This document shows positions 50,584 through 60,940 of a DNA stretch of 63,009 bases, one piece after another. This stretch comes from a virus: IMG/VR virus record IMGVR_UViG_3300036774_000098, positions 1 through 63,009 of that record. One strand, written 5' to 3'. Numbering within the stretch: the first letter of the stretch is position 1; each line of letters starts with the position of its first letter. The position numbers and the translations under genes are program-made. Below the pieces are notes generated by a model. That model ran no database searches and was not told the origin of the DNA. It worked only from the letters and a program-made list of their open reading frames with translations.

Positions 50584-51694
50584 TTTGGATATCCTCCTGT
50601 ATTTTCGCTAGCTTGGCATAGAGGTCCTCGCCGTTGCTAGCCTGGGTTGGTGTATATGCTTTTAGCGTCCCCCTGTCAACTATGGGAGCCGTCCTCCTAC
50701 GCATGGCTTCCATCACACGGCCCTCGAAGAACCTCCAGCCCCTGATCGATCCCGGTCCCATGCGCTCCTCGGCCTGCTTGGACGCCACCTGCAGGACCGG
50801 CAGGATGTCCTGGTAGAGGTCGCACCCGGCGTCGATCCACTTCTTGGGTTCGGTCACCAGCTCCAGGGCCATGTTGCCTCGGGCCAGCGCGCCGTTGCAG
50901 GCGGAGGTCAGTTTGTCGTGCAGCTCGTGCACGGTCAGCTTGTTCGCGTCTGCGCCAATAAATTCGCGCGCGTTAATATCAAGAGATGATTTATCCGGAT
51001 AGGGGCTCTCCAGGGGTGTGGTTGGGGCCAGCTCCCTGCCACCACCATTACCCTCATTGGGTGTAGCGTCTTCCCCAAAAACAACAACACCCCCCTCTGA
51101 ATTTAGCTGAATATCCCCCCGATCCTTAAGGGATGTGGCCCGCTGGGCAGGCCGCTTTTGGGGCAACTGGCCTGTGGGGCAGGCCACCTCGTTTCCAGAA
51201 AAGTGGCCACTAGAACAGGCCACTTTTTTCAAACTGGCCTGTGGGGCAGGCCGCTTTTTTTCATGGGAATCGAGGACATTTTGCAGAATGCTATAGCGAC
51301 TTTTTTTTCCTCGCCCTTCTCTCTCAACCTTTGCGTGCTCCCATTCTCCGAACTTTTCGGCAGCGCTGGCGAAGCCGTCCTTGGACTTGCTGAGCAGCAC
51401 CCGCGCCTCACTGCGAGGCATGGAGATAGGGTCGCCATCGACCCCGCCGAGCTCGATCACGGCCACGGCGAACAGCTTCGCGTCGGCCGGCATATCGCTG
51501 GTCAGCACTTGAATTCTGGCGATGTCTCGGGGAGTAGGATTTGGGTTGGCTTTGAGAAGGCGGGAACGGGCGCTCTCTCTCTTGGTCTCGATGTAGGCCA
51601 GCTCCATTCCGCTGAGGTCCAGTGGCGTCTGCTGGCGGCCGTTGAATGGGGTATTGACGCGCGGTTGCGCATGCTCTATGGTTTTATCCACCAT
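50567..51694 (-). CDS. Replication initiator-like protein with winged-helix domain
   Basis: 375 residues from ATG 51694, with GAGGAAAG upstream. An ATG at 51739 and others lack a ribosome site. Residues 35-130 contain a DNA-binding domain (ISMPRSEARVLLSKSKDGFA, SAAEKFGEWEHAKVEREGRG, KKSRYSILQNV) like initiator or O-type winged helices. A Cys/Gly/Gln-rich repeat segment (residues 150-190) is encoded by iteron-like DNA. The C-terminus (KKWIDAGCDLYQDILPVLQV) is helical, as in phage replication proteins that contact the helicase loader. Lambda O is the functional model. Confidence 0.6.
   Translation of the reverse strand: MVDKTIEHAQPRVNTPFNGRQQTPLDLSGMELAYIETKRESARSRLLKANPNPTPRDIARIQVLTSDMPADAKLFAVAVIELGGVDGDPISMPRSEARVLLSKSKDGFASAAEKFGEWEHAKVEREGRGKKSRYSILQNVLDSHEKKRPAPQASLKKVACSSGHFSGNEVACPTGQLPQKRPAQRATSLKDRGDIQLNSEGGVVVFGEDATPNEGNGGGRELAPTTPLESPYPDKSSLDINAREFIGADANKLTVHELHDKLTSACNGALARGNMALELVTEPKKWIDAGCDLYQDILPVLQVASKQAEERMGPGSIRGWRFFEGRVMEAMRRRTAPIVDRGTLKAYTPTQASNGEDLYAKLAKIQEDIQNGKRT
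51136..51252. repeat. Four iteron-like repeats inside the initiator gene: candidate origin
   Basis: Units of the form TGGCC-N7-CAGGCC start at 51136, 51168, 51204 and 51235 (spacing 32, 36 and 31). Two are identical (TGGCCTGTGGGGCAGGCC) and each is itself an inverted repeat, GGCCTG...CAGGCC. Three are followed by a T-run. Clustered repeats within an initiator gene are how lambdoid origins are built. Confidence 0.65.
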
Positions 51695-51980
51695 GAGGCT
51701 TTCCTCGATTAGCTTTGAGACGCATACCCAATGCGCCATGGTCGTGCCGCTGGGCTTTGACGAGTCGCAGCAGGCCTCCGCAGGATACGGAGCCAAAGCA
51801 ACTTTGGCAACCTCTTAAACGGCCAGCTCTCCCCCAATCCAGAGCTGGCCGTTGCCGTTTTGGGAGGTGGCTGGACCCGCAGCCTCAGCGACAGGCGACC
51901 ACCTTACACCTGCCGAGCCCATAACTCCAGCGTGTCATATTCAAAATATTGCATACACAAAGTGGTATACATTTTCCATG
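51695..51980. other. Non-coding leader of the replication operon, with hairpins
   Basis: No gene. It contains CCAAAG-CAA-CTTTGG (about 51793-51807), the long hairpin at 51818-51853, one copy of the 11-mer CTGCCGAGCCC (51910-51920) and an AT-rich patch (51930-51980) between the divergent replication and RNA transcription units. CTTTGT, 17 bases and TATGAC on the minus strand (about 51959-51934) is a plausible promoter for the replication operon. Confidence 0.5.
51818..51853. other. 13-bp perfect hairpin
   Basis: AACGGCCAGCTCT (51818-51830) and AGAGCTGGCCGTT (51841-51853) enclose CCCCCAATCC. It lies in the 5' leader of the leftward replication messenger, followed on that strand by TTTAAG, so it could attenuate it. 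Confidence 0.7.
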
Positions 51981-52009
51981 TTGACAGTCGTCAGCTCCTG
52001 GGCTATTGT
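51981..52009 (+). promoter_or_regulatory. Strong sigma70-type promoter for the non-coding RNA
   Basis: Consensus TTGACA (51981-51986), 17 bases, TATTGT (52004-52009). No ORF with a ribosome site follows for 900 bases, so it should drive the structured RNA and tRNAs. Confidence 0.78.
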
Positions 52010-52015
52010 TTGGTC

Positions 52016-52683
52016 TGACGCAACGTGGTTCGTTTGGTTTCGGGTGACTTTGCTTTCTTCAGCAGATCAGTGAGCTCCTACCGTTTCGGAACTCCGATCT
52101 CCCATCAGACACGCCTCTCGATAGATGCTGATCTGGTCTGCTGGGGAAAACAAAGTGTTTCATTGGAGGGGATCTCCGTGTGGGCGTTTCGACTGATAGG
52201 TTTGGCCCCCAAGTTCTGATGCCGAAAGGATAGTGTCCCCTCCGCCAGCGGTGGCAGGAAAGCGCTAATCAGGACAAAACCTTAGTGGCAGGCCAAGAGT
52301 GCGTTTCTCATTCTTGTCATTGGGGAGGCCTCCTTTCACGTGGTTTTGGATGCGCCACGTAACTGGTCAAGATATGCGAAAGCAGACGTCGGGCCTCTCG
52401 ACTTCTGGGGATACAGAGGGATTGCAAACGGCGTTAATCTGATCAGCGTTCCCGCCGCACTGGAGGCGCAAAACTCCCAGTGGCTAATTTTCGGCCTCTA
52501 TGCAAATACCTCAGGACACCTAATGATGGCGTATCGCCATCGCGTCCACACCGAGCAGCATAGGGGGTTCAAGTCCGCGGATAAGCTCGAAGGTCTCTGC
52601 GAGTCCTTTCGAGCAAATCCGCGGACTTCCGGGGTTCCTCCCTCCATTTTGGCGACAAGGTGGAGGGACACCCCCCAGATTTT
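52016..52683 (+). ncRNA. Candidate large structured non-coding RNA
   Basis: About 670 bases without a credible gene but full of nested complementarity. Examples: TTGGCC (52202 region) with GGCCAA (52292 region) enclosing TTCTGAT with ATCAGGA, CCGAAAGG and TGCGAAAGCA GNRA hairpins, ACGTGG with CCACGT (52338-52365 region), CACTGG with CCAGTG (52459-52482 region), GATGGCG-TAT-CGCCATC, and a 12+7 bp stem (52571-52628) made of AAGTCCGCGGAT/ATCCGCGGACTT and GCTCGAA/TTCGAGC, then TCCCTCCA/TGGAGGGA. Promoter upstream and tRNAs downstream resemble the setting of the GOLLD and ROOL phage RNAs. Family membership was not tested. Confidence 0.6.
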
Positions 52684-52760
52684 TGCGGAGTGGAGCAGTA
52701 GTCAGCTCGCCAGCCTCATAAGCTGGAGGTCGGTGGTGCAAATCCACCCTCTCGCAACCA
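52684..52760 (+). tRNA. tRNA-Met-like (CAT), unusual acceptor stem
   Basis: Cloverleaf: acceptor TGCGGAG, D-stem GAGC/GCTC, anticodon stem CCAGC/GCTGG with loop CTCATAA (anticodon CAT), T-stem GGTGG/CCACC with loop TGCAAAT, then CTCTCGCA and ACCA. Overall it resembles initiator tRNA-fMet, but the 3' acceptor strand has one extra T (bulge), the initiator GGG/CCC pairs are absent, and the T-loop starts TG instead of TT. Met or lysidine-type Ile cannot be decided. Confidence 0.7.
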
Positions 52761-52817
52761 GAATGCAGCACGGCGACGAAAAAGGGAACCCTATGTCCCT
52801 GGGTCCATCAGCATTAT

Positions 52818-52904
52818 GGACCGGAAGTGTAAAGGGGCACACTGTCGGCGGAGGCTAGACACTCACCGACGGAGGAGGCGGTTCGATACCGTCCCGGACC
52901 AACA
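52818..52904 (+). tRNA. tRNA-like element with a 17-base anticodon loop
   Basis: Acceptor GGACCGG with CCGGACC (one A-A mismatch), D-arm GTGT/ACAC with GG in its loop, anticodon stem GTCGG/CCGAC and T-arm GGCGG-TTCGATA-CCGTC all fall in place, but the anticodon loop (52849-52865) has 17 bases including CTA instead of 7. The 3' end reads ACA, not CCA. A degenerate tRNA or a tRNA mimic. Confidence 0.5.
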
Positions 52905-52924
52905 CATAAAGCAGGAGGGAACAC

Positions 52925-53578
52925 ATGAGCAGCACACTTGACATGCTTCACGCCGATCTTCGAGAGATCGAAGCTCATCTCGCCGTGTGGCCTGACGACA
53001 AATACGCCATCCACAGGCATGGCCTGATCCTGGAAGACATTGAGGCGGCGACCCCGCCGATGACGTCCGACCAGCACCAGAGCACTCTGCGCGGCGCTAA
53101 GCCCGTCCCAGGATCGTATGACTGGATGGGCAAGGCCGCTCGCGATGCCCTGCCAGCAGGATACGAGAATCCATGCTTGAGCTGCAAATCAGTCGTCTCA
53201 TGTTCCGGCTGCGTCCACCGCGTCCAGCGCCAGGATATCAAGCGCTACGGAGACGCCCCAAGCAATGACCTGGAGCGCTATGCCCAGCGTCAGCTGGAGC
53301 TCTACGGCAACAAGCCGAAGCGGGTCATCCTCGACGACGTCACCGAACAGTGGGATTTCGGACGCACCAATGCCCTGCGCTTCACCTTCGGCGCAGACTA
53401 TGAGATGGACCAGCAGTGGCTCGCCAGGGAACGCGCCAAGGTCGCAGGACGACGGGAAGAACAACGGACGGTTGCCTCACCCACCCCCACTGCCGAGCCC
53501 GACCGGATGATGTTTCCCGTCATGGCTTATGACTTGACAAGCCTACACAACTTGAACTATGGTACATCTCGTTACTGA
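52925..53578 (+). CDS. Hypothetical protein between the two structured RNAs
   Basis: 217 residues with CAGGAGGG before the ATG. A helical acidic N-terminus (LHADLREIEAHLAVWPDDKY) precedes a cysteine cluster (NPCLSCKSVVSCSGCVHRVQ: CxxC and CxxC), likely zinc-binding, then an Arg/Gln-rich helical part. The end is Pro/Thr-rich (ASPTPTAEPD) and contains the recurrent 11-mer. No family recognised. The only protein gene inside the RNA region, so RNA binding is worth considering. The promoter of the second RNA lies within its 3' end. Confidence 0.65.
   Translation: MSSTLDMLHADLREIEAHLAVWPDDKYAIHRHGLILEDIEAATPPMTSDQHQSTLRGAKPVPGSYDWMGKAARDALPAGYENPCLSCKSVVSCSGCVHRVQRQDIKRYGDAPSNDLERYAQRQLELYGNKPKRVILDDVTEQWDFGRTNALRFTFGADYEMDQQWLARERAKVAGRREEQRTVASPTPTAEPDRMMFPVMAYDLTSLHNLNYGTSRY
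53534..53563 (+). promoter_or_regulatory. Sigma70-type promoter for the second RNA/tRNA block
   Basis: TTGACA (53534-53539), 18 bases, TATGGT (53558-53563), inside the last codons of the upstream gene. Transcription would start near 53570, just before that gene's stop codon. Confidence 0.65.
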
Positions 53579-53975
53579 CGTAGCAAACTCCAGGTGTGGC
53601 TGCCGATTTCACAGTTACACTCCTGGATAAAGAGACAGCTCCAGCCAGCGGCGTCTTGTGTTGCAGGCAAGAACGCCATTTAAACTAGCTCGGGCTGTCT
53701 CTAAACTTCAGCATTTGTGGTAGACGATGTTGAGTGTGCGACCTATCTTCCGTTCCCTCGGATCAGCGGCGCTTCCCAATCCCAACATCGTCTTCCAGAA
53801 CTGCTGACGGCATTCGTGAAGATGATCTCTTCCCTTTGACCCCCACACGGTCTCTGCTACATCGGAGAAACGGGGAGGGATCATCCTCAGGACTGCTGTG
53901 CCTCGAAAGAGGTTGGCGAGAAATGTAAACCCATCGTACGCCGGCTGATACGAGATGGGCTCTTCCAGAGTATCG
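53570..53975 (+). ncRNA. Second candidate structured RNA, upstream of the tRNA array
   Basis: About 400 bases with no credible gene. Stems seen: AGAGACAGC (53631-53639) with GCTGTCTCT (53694-53702) enclosing GGCGT..ACGCC; GACGATGTTG (53723-53732) with CAACATCGTC (53783-53792); GATGATCTCTTCCC (53821-53834) with GGGGAGGGATCATC (53872-53885), 14 bp with two G-T pairs; the GNRA hairpin CCTCGAAAGAGG; and CCCATCGTA/TACGAGATGGG. These follow one another without overlap, as in a folded RNA. It runs into the first tRNA at 53976. Confidence 0.55.
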
Positions 53976-54048
53976 CTAGTCGTAGCTCAGTTGGTAGAGC
54001 GGGGGACAAATAATCTCTAGCGCGCTGGTTCGAGTCCAGCCGACATGG
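53976..54048 (+). tRNA. tRNA-like gene, anticodon loop CAAATAA (AAT?)
   Basis: Good D-arm (GCTCAGTTGGTAGAGC), anticodon stem GGGGA/TCTCT, variable AGCGC and T-arm GCTGG-TTCGAGT-CCAGC. The acceptor CTAGTCG/CGACATG has two mismatches, CCA is not encoded, and position 33 is A rather than the near-universal T. If read normally the anticodon is AAT (Ile). Confidence 0.6.
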
Positions 54049-54063
54049 CAGTCCGCATAATTA

Positions 54064-54151
54064 GGGTGAGACCCAGACTGGTGTCTGGAACGGACTGTAA
54101 ATCCGTCGGCATTGCGACCATGGACGGGTTCGATCCCCTCCTCGCCCACCA
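54064..54151 (+). tRNA. tRNA-Tyr (GTA)
   Basis: Acceptor GGGTGAG/CTCGCCC, D-stem CCAG/CTGG, anticodon stem ACGGA/TCCGT with loop CTGTAAA (anticodon GTA), a long class II variable arm as expected for bacterial tRNA-Tyr, T-loop TTCGATC and encoded ACCA. The outer two pairs of the T-stem are mismatched. Confidence 0.88.
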
Positions 54152-54156
54152 TATTT

Positions 54157-54345
54157 GACGACGCCGCCTAGAGGTGAGGGCACTGTTGAACGGAAGCAGG
54201 TGGGGAAACCCAGACGCGGTGAAAGCGGCCTCCCCAACTTTGACCGGGTAAGCGCGGTTCATAAGGAGGCCCGCCATCGAATTGTCAGACAAAGGCTTGG
54301 CGGTGGTCTGCGTTGTTGCCGGTTCGAGTCCGGCCGTCGTTACCA
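54157..54345 (+). tRNA. tRNA-like gene (ACG?) split by about 113 bases
   Basis: The 5' part has acceptor GACGACG, D-stem GCC/GGC and anticodon stem CTGTT/AGCAG with loop GAACGGA (54157-54199). The 3' part has T-arm GCCGG-TTCGAGT-CCGGC, acceptor CGTCGTT and encoded ACCA (54318-54345). The two acceptor strands pair over 7 bp (one G-T). Between them, where 4-5 variable bases belong, lie 118 bases with their own hairpins. Position 33 is A. Anticodon would be ACG (Arg). Confidence 0.55.
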
Positions 54346-54583
54346 AAGCTCCTGTAAGGGAGTGTAGCGTTATGGCAATGGCGCTATTCCTTGAAGGCGC
54401 CAGGAGTTTCCCACTCCTGGCGTTTAGCTCCTCGCCGGAGGGGGTAAGTCGAGAAGTCCTCTGCAGGGGAATCTCGCAGGAAACCGGGGACTGCCGACGG
54501 CCTTAATGTTGGGGAGAGCTGGGGCCTTAGGCCAGCCGGCCTTCCTTGGCGGGCACTTGTGTGGCCGGTCAAGGGGCCGTTAC
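54346..54583 (+). other. Non-coding spacer with hairpins in the tRNA array
   Basis: No gene. CGCCAGGAGT (54398-54407) and ACTCCTGGCG (54413-54422) form a perfect 10-bp hairpin with loop TTCCC. Further GC-rich inverted repeats follow (for example GGCCTTAGGCC near 54530). May be part of a larger RNA that embeds the tRNAs. Confidence 0.5.
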
Positions 54584-54657
54584 CGGGATGGGGCCAAATG
54601 CGAAATGGCAACGGGTCGCGCCCGTCGTTGCAGGTTCGAATCCTGCCATCCCGGCCA
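54584..54657 (+). tRNA. tRNA-like gene, possible anticodon CGC
   Basis: Acceptor CGGGATG/CATCCCG is perfect, followed by G and encoded CCA. T-arm GCAGG-TTCGAAT-CCTGC perfect. D-stem GCCA/TGGC, but its loop lacks GG. The anticodon stem is 4 bp (ACGG/CCGT) around GTCGCGC, giving anticodon CGC (Ala) with T33. Good ends, irregular middle. Confidence 0.65.
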
Positions 54658-54676
54658 TTCATCAAAGGAGGACAGC

Positions 54677-54862
54677 ATGACAGAGCCAAGACACCCGGCC
54701 TCGGACGGGGAATACCACGACATCCCCGACGTCGCCGATCAGACGGCCCAGGAAGCCGAGGACAGGGGCGTAGAGCCCCAGCCCAGCGCTCCCCTGGACT
54801 ATGCCGACGCCGACGTCCCGGACGTCGCAGGCGAGGCCCAGAGCGGGTACAGGTGGCCATGA
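54677..54862 (+). CDS. Small acidic hypothetical protein
   Basis: 61 residues, AAAGGAGG 8 bases before the ATG. Acidic and Pro/Ala-rich (EYHDIPDVADQTAQEAEDRG). It contains DIPDVAD, close to EIPDLAGD in the protein two genes downstream, so the two are probably diverged copies. Overlaps the next start by 4 bases. Function unknown. Confidence 0.6.
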   Translation: MTEPRHPASDGEYHDIPDVADQTAQEAEDRGVEPQPSAPLDYADADVPDVAGEAQSGYRWP

Positions 54863-54984
54863 GCGACGAGCCCCATCACACGCCCCCGCCCGGCGAAGAG
54901 CCCCAAGAGGCCGAGCCGGTAACCGTAGCCCCCGAGGTCCACGTGGAGATCCACAACCTCGACGACGAGAGGACCGAGATATGA
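54859..54984 (+). CDS. 41-residue acidic peptide
   Basis: MSDEPHHTPPPGEEPQEAEP followed by a Val/Glu-rich strand. Coupled on both sides by ATGA overlaps. Same MSDE start as the next gene. No family. Confidence 0.5.
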   Translation: MSDEPHHTPPPGEEPQEAEPVTVAPEVHVEIHNLDDERTEI

Positions 54985-55142
54985 GCGACGAAGACACGCA
55001 GGACCACAACCCGACTAACACCCACCCGGCGTCGAGCGGCGGCCCCTACGAGATCCCGGACCTCGCCGGCGACACGGCAGACATTGCCGACGAGTTTGAG
55101 TTCAACTACGCCCAGGCGGCGTTTGATATGGAGAAGCACTGA
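54981..55142 (+). CDS. 53-residue acidic hypothetical protein
   Basis: MSDEDTQDHNPTNTHPASSG then PYEIPDLAGDTADIADEFEF. The EIPDLAGDTAD segment resembles DIPDVADQTAQ of the gene at 54677. Its stop shares a base with the ATG of the Tad2-like gene (TGATGG), so these acidic genes are expressed with it. Confidence 0.55.
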   Translation: MSDEDTQDHNPTNTHPASSGGPYEIPDLAGDTADIADEFEFNYAQAAFDMEKH

Positions 55143-55435
55143 TGGTGTCAGGACTCACATTCGAAGAGGCTCTTCAGTCCGTAAAGCAAGGCTCCAGAAT
55201 CTATCGAGCTGGCTGGAACGGCAAGAACCAGTTCCTGTCACTTGCCCCTGGCAACAGCCACCTGCCAGCAGGATCAATCTGGAGCCGTCATGGCCGCGAG
55301 TTTGCCGAGCTGCTCGGCGGAAGCATTGCTGTCGCCCCGTCCTTGACCCTCAAGAACTCCCAGGACCAGCTCGTCATGGGATGGGTTCCGAGCACTGGCG
55401 ATCTGTTCGCCGAGGATTGGGTGGCTGAGGAATGA
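55142..55435 (+). CDS. tad2: Tad2-like anti-Thoeris protein (DUF2829)
   Basis: 97 residues. LTFEEALQSVKQGSRIYRAG, WNGKNQFLSLAPG and the final DLFAEDWVAEE match the DUF2829 pattern (EAL-KxG, GWNGK, DxxAxDW). Characterised members, Tad2, bind the cyclic signal made by Thoeris TIR proteins and so block that host defence. Small, cytoplasmic and early-type position, as expected for an anti-defence sponge. Ligand-pocket residues cannot be confirmed by eye. Confidence 0.78.
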   Translation: MVSGLTFEEALQSVKQGSRIYRAGWNGKNQFLSLAPGNSHLPAGSIWSRHGREFAELLGGSIAVAPSLTLKNSQDQLVMGWVPSTGDLFAEDWVAEE

Positions 55436-60315: not shown

Positions 60316-60771
60316 CTATACTTCGATAAACTCTCCTCCTTCCTCGACGAACAGCTCCAGAACTGCTATCATTCTCGTCTGATACCCCTTGCCGCCCGTT
60401 TTATAGTGATGGAGCAGCTTGGTCGGTATGCGGAGATTGATGGCCGTCCGGTTCGCTTCCTCCTTCGACGGCAGCACAACGAAGCGCTTGGCGTCAGGAG
60501 GCAGCACGGGGCGCACACGCGGCGCTTTCCGTTTCTTGGGTGATGGCGAGGGCTTAGGCTTCTTCGCCCGTGTGCGGGCTTCCTTGGGCTCTACAGCCAC
60601 CATCTCGGATTCAGTGATGATCGGGCCAGGAGCTTCGCGCATCGACTGGCCACCGTAAGCAGGCGCGCCAGACATCACGTCGCCCGGCAGAATATGATTG
60701 GGAGCAGCGACGCTCCAGACATTCGACTCATTGCCCGGCAGGCGGACATTGCCAACTCTTTTTATGGCCAT
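60316..60771 (-). CDS. Ribbon-helix-helix (BrnA-like) protein
   Basis: 151 residues from ATG 60771 (AGGAGG upstream). The first 60 are mixed, 80-105 are Lys/Pro-rich (KKPKPSPSPKKRKAPRVRPV), and the last 45 (TAINLRIPTKLLHHYKTGGK, GYQTRMIAVLELFVEEGG) match the RHH of BrnA-type antitoxins with their GKGYQTRxNAxL box. No BrnT-like toxin is adjacent, so a stand-alone DNA-binding regulator is likely. Confidence 0.72.
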   Translation of the reverse strand: MAIKRVGNVRLPGNESNVWSVAAPNHILPGDVMSGAPAYGGQSMREAPGPIITESEMVAVEPKEARTRAKKPKPSPSPKKRKAPRVRPVLPPDAKRFVVLPSKEEANRTAINLRIPTKLLHHYKTGGKGYQTRMIAVLELFVEEGGEFIEV

Positions 60772-60940
60772 ATCGGCCTCCTGTTCATCGTTTGCGATGG
60801 ATGGAGTTTGCCATTTGCGGCCATAAAAGTATATACCGGAGGAGTTTCCCCTTGAGGGATAGCCCGTCATCGAGTAAGCTGAGGTCGATATGCACCTTCC
60901 AAAGTTCCTGGCCTTATTCACCCATCACGCTGGAGCAGAC

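Follow-up and report, generated by a model that had tools for sequence, protein, structure and literature searches.

An orphan candidate for a large structured phage RNA in a locus of two promoter, RNA and tRNA cassettes

Introduction

Few families of large tRNA-associated phage RNAs are known and their function is an open question. GOLLD assembles into a 14-mer RNA nanocage, and ROOL, which reaches very high abundance, into an octameric one. Both are RNAs of phages and prophages that often lie near tRNA islands; the abundance of ROOL is at the level of 16S rRNA, GOLLD increases during lysis, and env-38, the GOLLD whose structure was solved, has a Met-tRNA on its upstream side (PMC12286853). 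A non-coding transcript of ~800 nt in phage ICP1 was likened to GOLLD and ROOL by its authors on account of its length (PMC7567579). An unrelated RNA in a like setting would suggest that the order of promoter, large RNA and tRNA has been selected repeatedly, and a duplicated cassette within one genome would give a testable model of processing.

Here we describe a locus in the IMG/VR virus record IMGVR_UViG_3300036774_000098, all 63,009 bases of which were analysed (the window). The record derives from an uncultured bacteriophage whose proteins are those of a tailed-phage set, with a portal of the kind known from podoviruses such as Bordetella BPP-1 and Salmonella SPN1S. The locus shares with GOLLD and ROOL the trait of being phage-borne and near tRNA genes, and it is at present a single-genome candidate.

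Results

Organization of the locus

A plus-strand unit extends from 51981 to ~55.6 kb and is flanked by minus-strand genes. By a simple gene caller, the two longest gene-free stretches inside the window were 51797-52924 and 53579-55141. We read the locus as a candidate phage RNA operon built of two cassettes, each with a promoter, a predicted structured RNA and a tRNA (Table 1). The first cassette, with RNA1, was already known from a preliminary description of this DNA, which overlooked the second one ~1.5 kb further on, where TTGACA-18-TATGGT is followed by RNA2 and then by tRNA-Ile. The second cassette strengthens the case for an RNA locus. Both RNAs end directly at a tRNA of the same strand, RNA1 at tRNA-Met, which begins at 52684 as the preliminary description had placed it, and RNA2 at tRNA-Ile. 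The boundaries of RNA1 were drawn from the promoter at its 5' end and from the start of the tRNA at its 3' end.

Table 1. Features of the RNA locus, with coordinates in the window
Feature	Position	Strand	Basis
Promoter 1, TTGACA-17-TATTGT, upstream of RNA1	51981..52009	+	10/12 consensus; -10 element 4/6
RNA1, large structured non-coding RNA (predicted)	52016..52683	+	folding z, codon usage, pair probabilities
RNA1 hairpin, ~30 bp, small internal loops	52047..52156	+	mean pair probability 0.97
RNA1 helix 52165-52173/52235-52243 around inner helix 52183-52194/52212-52223	52165..52243	+	predicted fold
RNA1 multibranch domain, closing helix GCGCTAATCAG/CTGATCAGCGT	52262..52449	+	P 0.93
RNA1 hairpin, perfect 7-bp apical stem GATGGCG-TAT-CGCCATC	52496..52565	+	predicted fold
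RNA1 hairpin, 12+7 bp stem	52571..52628	+	inverted-repeat search and predicted fold
RNA1 3' hairpin, 13+5 bp, GCGA loop, then CCAGATTTTT	52631..52674	+	predicted fold; sequence
tRNA-Met(CAT), CCA encoded	52684..52760	+	52.9 bits
tRNA-like element, T arm GGCGG-TTCGATA-CCGTC, without CCA	52801..52907	+	ARAGORN at low threshold only; fold
Gene of 217-aa protein, between both RNA cassettes	52925..53578	+	codon score +0.16
Promoter 2, TTGACA-18-TATGGT, upstream of RNA2	53534..53563	+	sequence match
RNA2, second structured non-coding RNA (predicted)	53570..53975	+	z -6.06, 0/100 shuffles as good
tRNA-Ile (AAT by ARAGORN), without CCA	53976..54049	+	tRNA model and ARAGORN
tRNA-Tyr(GTA)-like, long variable arm, CCA encoded	54064..54150	+	tRNA-Sec model 45.5 bits, cut-off 47
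tRNA-like RNA of ~190 nt, encoded CCA, large insert	54157..54345	+	ARAGORN; fold
tRNA-Ala(CGC)	54584..54657	+	tRNA search

The consensus-like promoter ahead of RNA1 was found as described. The pattern TTGACA-N16..18-TAnnnT occurs twice in 63 kb (51981 and 53534), with 0.27 sites expected and at least two in 5 of 100 shuffles, and these two sites mark the 5' ends of RNA1 and RNA2 and nothing else.

Several other features of the window were recorded. The unit ends in a Tad2-like protein of the Thoeris anti-defence family (55142-55435, plus strand; PF11195, E 1.6e-19). An RNA ligase (PF09414; 47732-48784, minus strand), with relatives in many phages at 41-46% identity, lies 3 kb from RNA1 and could act in the repair of cleaved tRNAs or in the circularisation of RNA. 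The 409-aa gene on the minus strand contains repeated GGCAGGCC hairpin-forming motifs at 51120-51260, both strands of which fold strongly, and a perfect 13-bp inverted repeat lies upstream of it at 51818-51853. A BrnA-antitoxin-like protein is encoded at 60316-60921 on the minus strand (PF14384; 26.5 bits, barely above the cut-off).

Coding potential and folding of RNA1

In the region 52014-52684 no frame has phage-like codon usage, the best frame of 52016-52684 scoring at most -0.20 bits per codon, where 15 genes used as reference score +0.10 to +0.48 and off-frames -0.54. The longest open reading frame (52340-52858; 172 aa, GTG start) scores -0.16 bits per codon and reads through the tRNA-Met gene. 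The earlier view that these ~670 bases hold no credible open reading frame is borne out by codon usage, by which none of the frames looks coding.

Folding significance was judged against dinucleotide shuffles. RNA1, folded as 671 nt, reached -275.7 kcal/mol against -235.7 +/- 6.8 for the shuffled sequences (z -5.87), a value equalled in none of 20 shuffles. In a folding scan of 157 genome-wide tiles of 400 nt, the tile 52401-52800 ranked first and 53601-54000 second. The 5' 400 nt of RNA1 alone have a z of -1.8, which is typical for windows of this genome, so most of the folding signal comes from the 3' half, even though the 30-bp helix 52047-52156 near the 5' end has a high predicted probability. 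Measured against its own shuffles, the opposite strand is equally well folded (z -7.84); since both strands fold well, the transcribed strand was assigned from the promoter and the strand of the tRNAs and not from folding.

The predicted fold of RNA1 is a string of long hairpins and one multibranch domain, with 151 base pairs at P>=0.8. The 12+7 bp stem of the preliminary description was verified (21 nt, 90% complementary). Of the nested pairs, the outer TTGGCC/GGCCAA (52202/52291) and the inner TTCTGAT/ATCAGGA (52214/52268) are both present in the sequence but absent from the minimum-energy fold, where their bases pair elsewhere (52212-52223 with 52183-52194, and 52262-52272 with 52439-52449). 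The GAAA-capped hairpins did not hold up as a notable trait, as GNRA-capped hairpins occur at chance level (3 in RNA1 against 1.4 expected, a count reached in 79 of 500 shuffles), and GNRA loops were dropped as a diagnostic of RNA1. The 3' hairpin with its CCAGAUUUU tail is a possible weak terminator; a terminator scan did not call it.

RNA2 and the tRNA-like elements

RNA2 is predicted to fold into three long consecutive hairpins (53631-53702, 53709-53806 and 53808-53898). Several of the tRNA-like elements around it depart from the canonical form. The element before the 217-aa gene has an irregular anticodon loop, and tRNA-Ile has A-A and U-U mismatches in the acceptor stem and is missing U33. 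This tRNA-Ile has ~78-82% identity to tRNA-Ile genes of Caulobacter phages. In the tRNA-like RNA of ~190 nt the acceptor, D and T arms and an anticodon-like arm are present; its insert is a 108-nt intron according to ARAGORN and an enlarged variable region according to the minimum-energy fold; its fold as a whole (z -1.0) is not above that of shuffles.

Search for known families and relatives

The preliminary description had offered membership of the GOLLD/ROOL class as one reading of RNA1, which the Rfam scan did not support; its other reading, an independent counterpart of that class, may hold. The models of GOLLD (RF02032, gathering score 150 bits) and ROOL (RF03087, 99.1 bits), both used without a positive control, were run at E<=10 on the whole window and 13 related records. 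Neither matched anywhere in the window, and ROOL had no match in 45 further records. At curated thresholds Rfam returned tRNA only, and at permissive thresholds the matches in the RNA locus outside the tRNAs were implausible, with none credible for RNA1. The Rfam models of group I/II introns, tmRNA, RNase P and 6S RNA gave no match, ARAGORN at its default threshold called no tmRNA, and even at E<=10 the tRNA model matched nothing inside either of the two RNAs.

BLAST of RNA1 against phage and plasmid collections returned nothing, and no match to it was found in ~1,190 sampled proteobacterial genomes (three partly overlapping sets of 399, 397 and 398, each an even sample of a larger group). Related phages were sought through portal alignments, DUF7227, DUF932, the RNA ligase, a processivity factor and the 217-aa protein, for the last of which no homologue was found; the portal-based searches yielded ~150 related viral records. 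In ~90 related IMG/VR records (40+50, 88 of them viral) the DNA of the RNA locus gave only tRNA-sized or chance-level matches, and as many of these records are fragments and near relatives may be missing from the material searched, this does not establish an absence of RNA1 relatives. The closest relative in the early region, G041 (20.6 kb; portal 89%, DUF932 66%), ends ~4 kb before the locus. Two portal-related phages have long tRNA arrays, of 21 genes in G071 and 26 in G082 (L225 9048-10846; L252/L253), but no RNA1 counterpart was found in them, and apparent structured stretches upstream of these arrays proved on reading to be short intergenic or terminator-like sequences and were rejected as counterparts. 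The exact RNA1 hairpin pattern was not found in viral contigs, and a covariance model built on the one sequence of the 3' domain of RNA1, searched over 1.5 Mb of mostly related records, matched itself alone. No RNA1 homologue from which covariation could be read came out of these searches.

Discussion

Codon usage, folding statistics, the uniqueness of the promoters and the position of the tRNAs support the earlier picture of a large, structured and non-coding RNA that adjoins tRNAs and has a promoter to itself, and we take the RNA1 locus to be largely a real, unusually structured and gene-free phage RNA locus. With no match to a known family and no relative in the collections searched, RNA1 appears to be a large phage RNA not described before, and on our best reading it is an orphan, large and structured like the phage RNAs GOLLD and ROOL and of their kind, but outside both families by the tests run.

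RNA1 (~670 nt) would be transcribed from the promoter at 51981 and would work as an RNA rather than as a message. Most likely RNA1 and tRNA-Met would form one precursor, from which a cut by RNase P at the 5' end of tRNA-Met (52684) would free RNA1, leaving it a stable hairpin as its 3' end; RNA2 would be freed likewise upstream of tRNA-Ile. This model of processing is based on position and on established knowledge of RNase P, and its alternative for the 3' end of RNA1 is a weak terminator at that hairpin. During infection the freed RNA may then be abundant and have a structural role in trans, a mode of action proposed for GOLLD and ROOL (PMC12286853) and one that for RNA1 we hold tentatively, at somewhat less than even odds. 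Transcription, processing, action in trans and any oligomer are all steps that we infer. We regard as unlikely the wider proposal that RNA1 and RNA2 are the founders of a new class of large phage RNA, or of two such classes, independent of both GOLLD and ROOL. The downstream tRNA would there be a signal for 3'-end maturation, and RNA-only assemblies would act in trans during infection.

RNA1 and RNA2 could instead be long cis-acting 5' leaders with hairpins that control only the tRNA operon, by antitermination, by RNase III or RNase P processing or through stability, and that lose any function once cut. We consider this somewhat unlikely. In both units the structured stretch does fill just the interval from the promoter to the first tRNA, and the long near-perfect hairpins of 20-30 bp are RNase III-type sites, of the kind that this enzyme cuts. 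However, ~670 nt far exceeds the phage antitermination and processing leaders known to us, such as put sites, which are much shorter, and a multibranch domain would be superfluous for processing. The irregular tRNA-like elements at 52801-52907, 53976-54049 and 54157-54345, together with the long tRNA arrays of the related G071 and G082, would also suit the decayed remains of a tRNA array that was once larger, or a pseudogene region whose hairpins are fortuitous. We find this distinctly improbable, as the tRNA model at E<=10 recognizes nothing inside RNA1 or RNA2 and decay is expected to lower the significance of folding, not to raise it.

That RNA1 is a GOLLD or ROOL diverged so highly that covariance models fail to recognize it would agree with its comparable size, tRNA neighbourhood and phage setting (PMC12286853), but is highly doubtful given that RF02032 and RF03087 remained without a match in the whole window at so permissive an E-value. 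Strong folding on both strands and perfect inverted repeats might point to an element that acts as DNA, such as a replication origin or a set of protein-binding sites; promoter and tRNAs are, however, arranged on one strand and the GC skew has no clear shift at the locus, which makes such an element very improbable. That unusual codon usage hides a coding gene here is hardly conceivable: the 172-aa open frame is present, but it scores below all reference genes and crosses tRNA-Met, and no other frame scores as coding.

Comparison with known systems

The reading of RNA1 as an orphan of the GOLLD/ROOL kind can be set against four described systems. The ICP1 transcript of ~800 nt is likewise large, without an open reading frame and phage-encoded (PMC7567579), whereas ICP1 is without tRNAs and RNA1 adjoins tRNA-Met. 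Phage tRNAs with altered anticodon loops (PMC10264068) resemble the tRNA-like elements of this locus, several of which have an atypical anticodon loop, a comparison that concerns its tRNAs and not RNA1 or RNA2. ROOL (RF03087) shares with the predicted RNA1 its large size, its structure and its phage or prophage origin, frequently in the neighbourhood of tRNA islands (PMC12286853); RNA1 has no match to its model at E<=10, and no homologue of RNA1 was found. The conserved 3' region of GOLLD (RF02032) was not detected in the window. Like RNA1, GOLLD is a very large RNA encoded by phages, and tRNA islands are frequently close to it (PMC12286853); the two differ in the order of their parts, as env-38 lies downstream of a Met-tRNA and RNA1 upstream of tRNA-Met.
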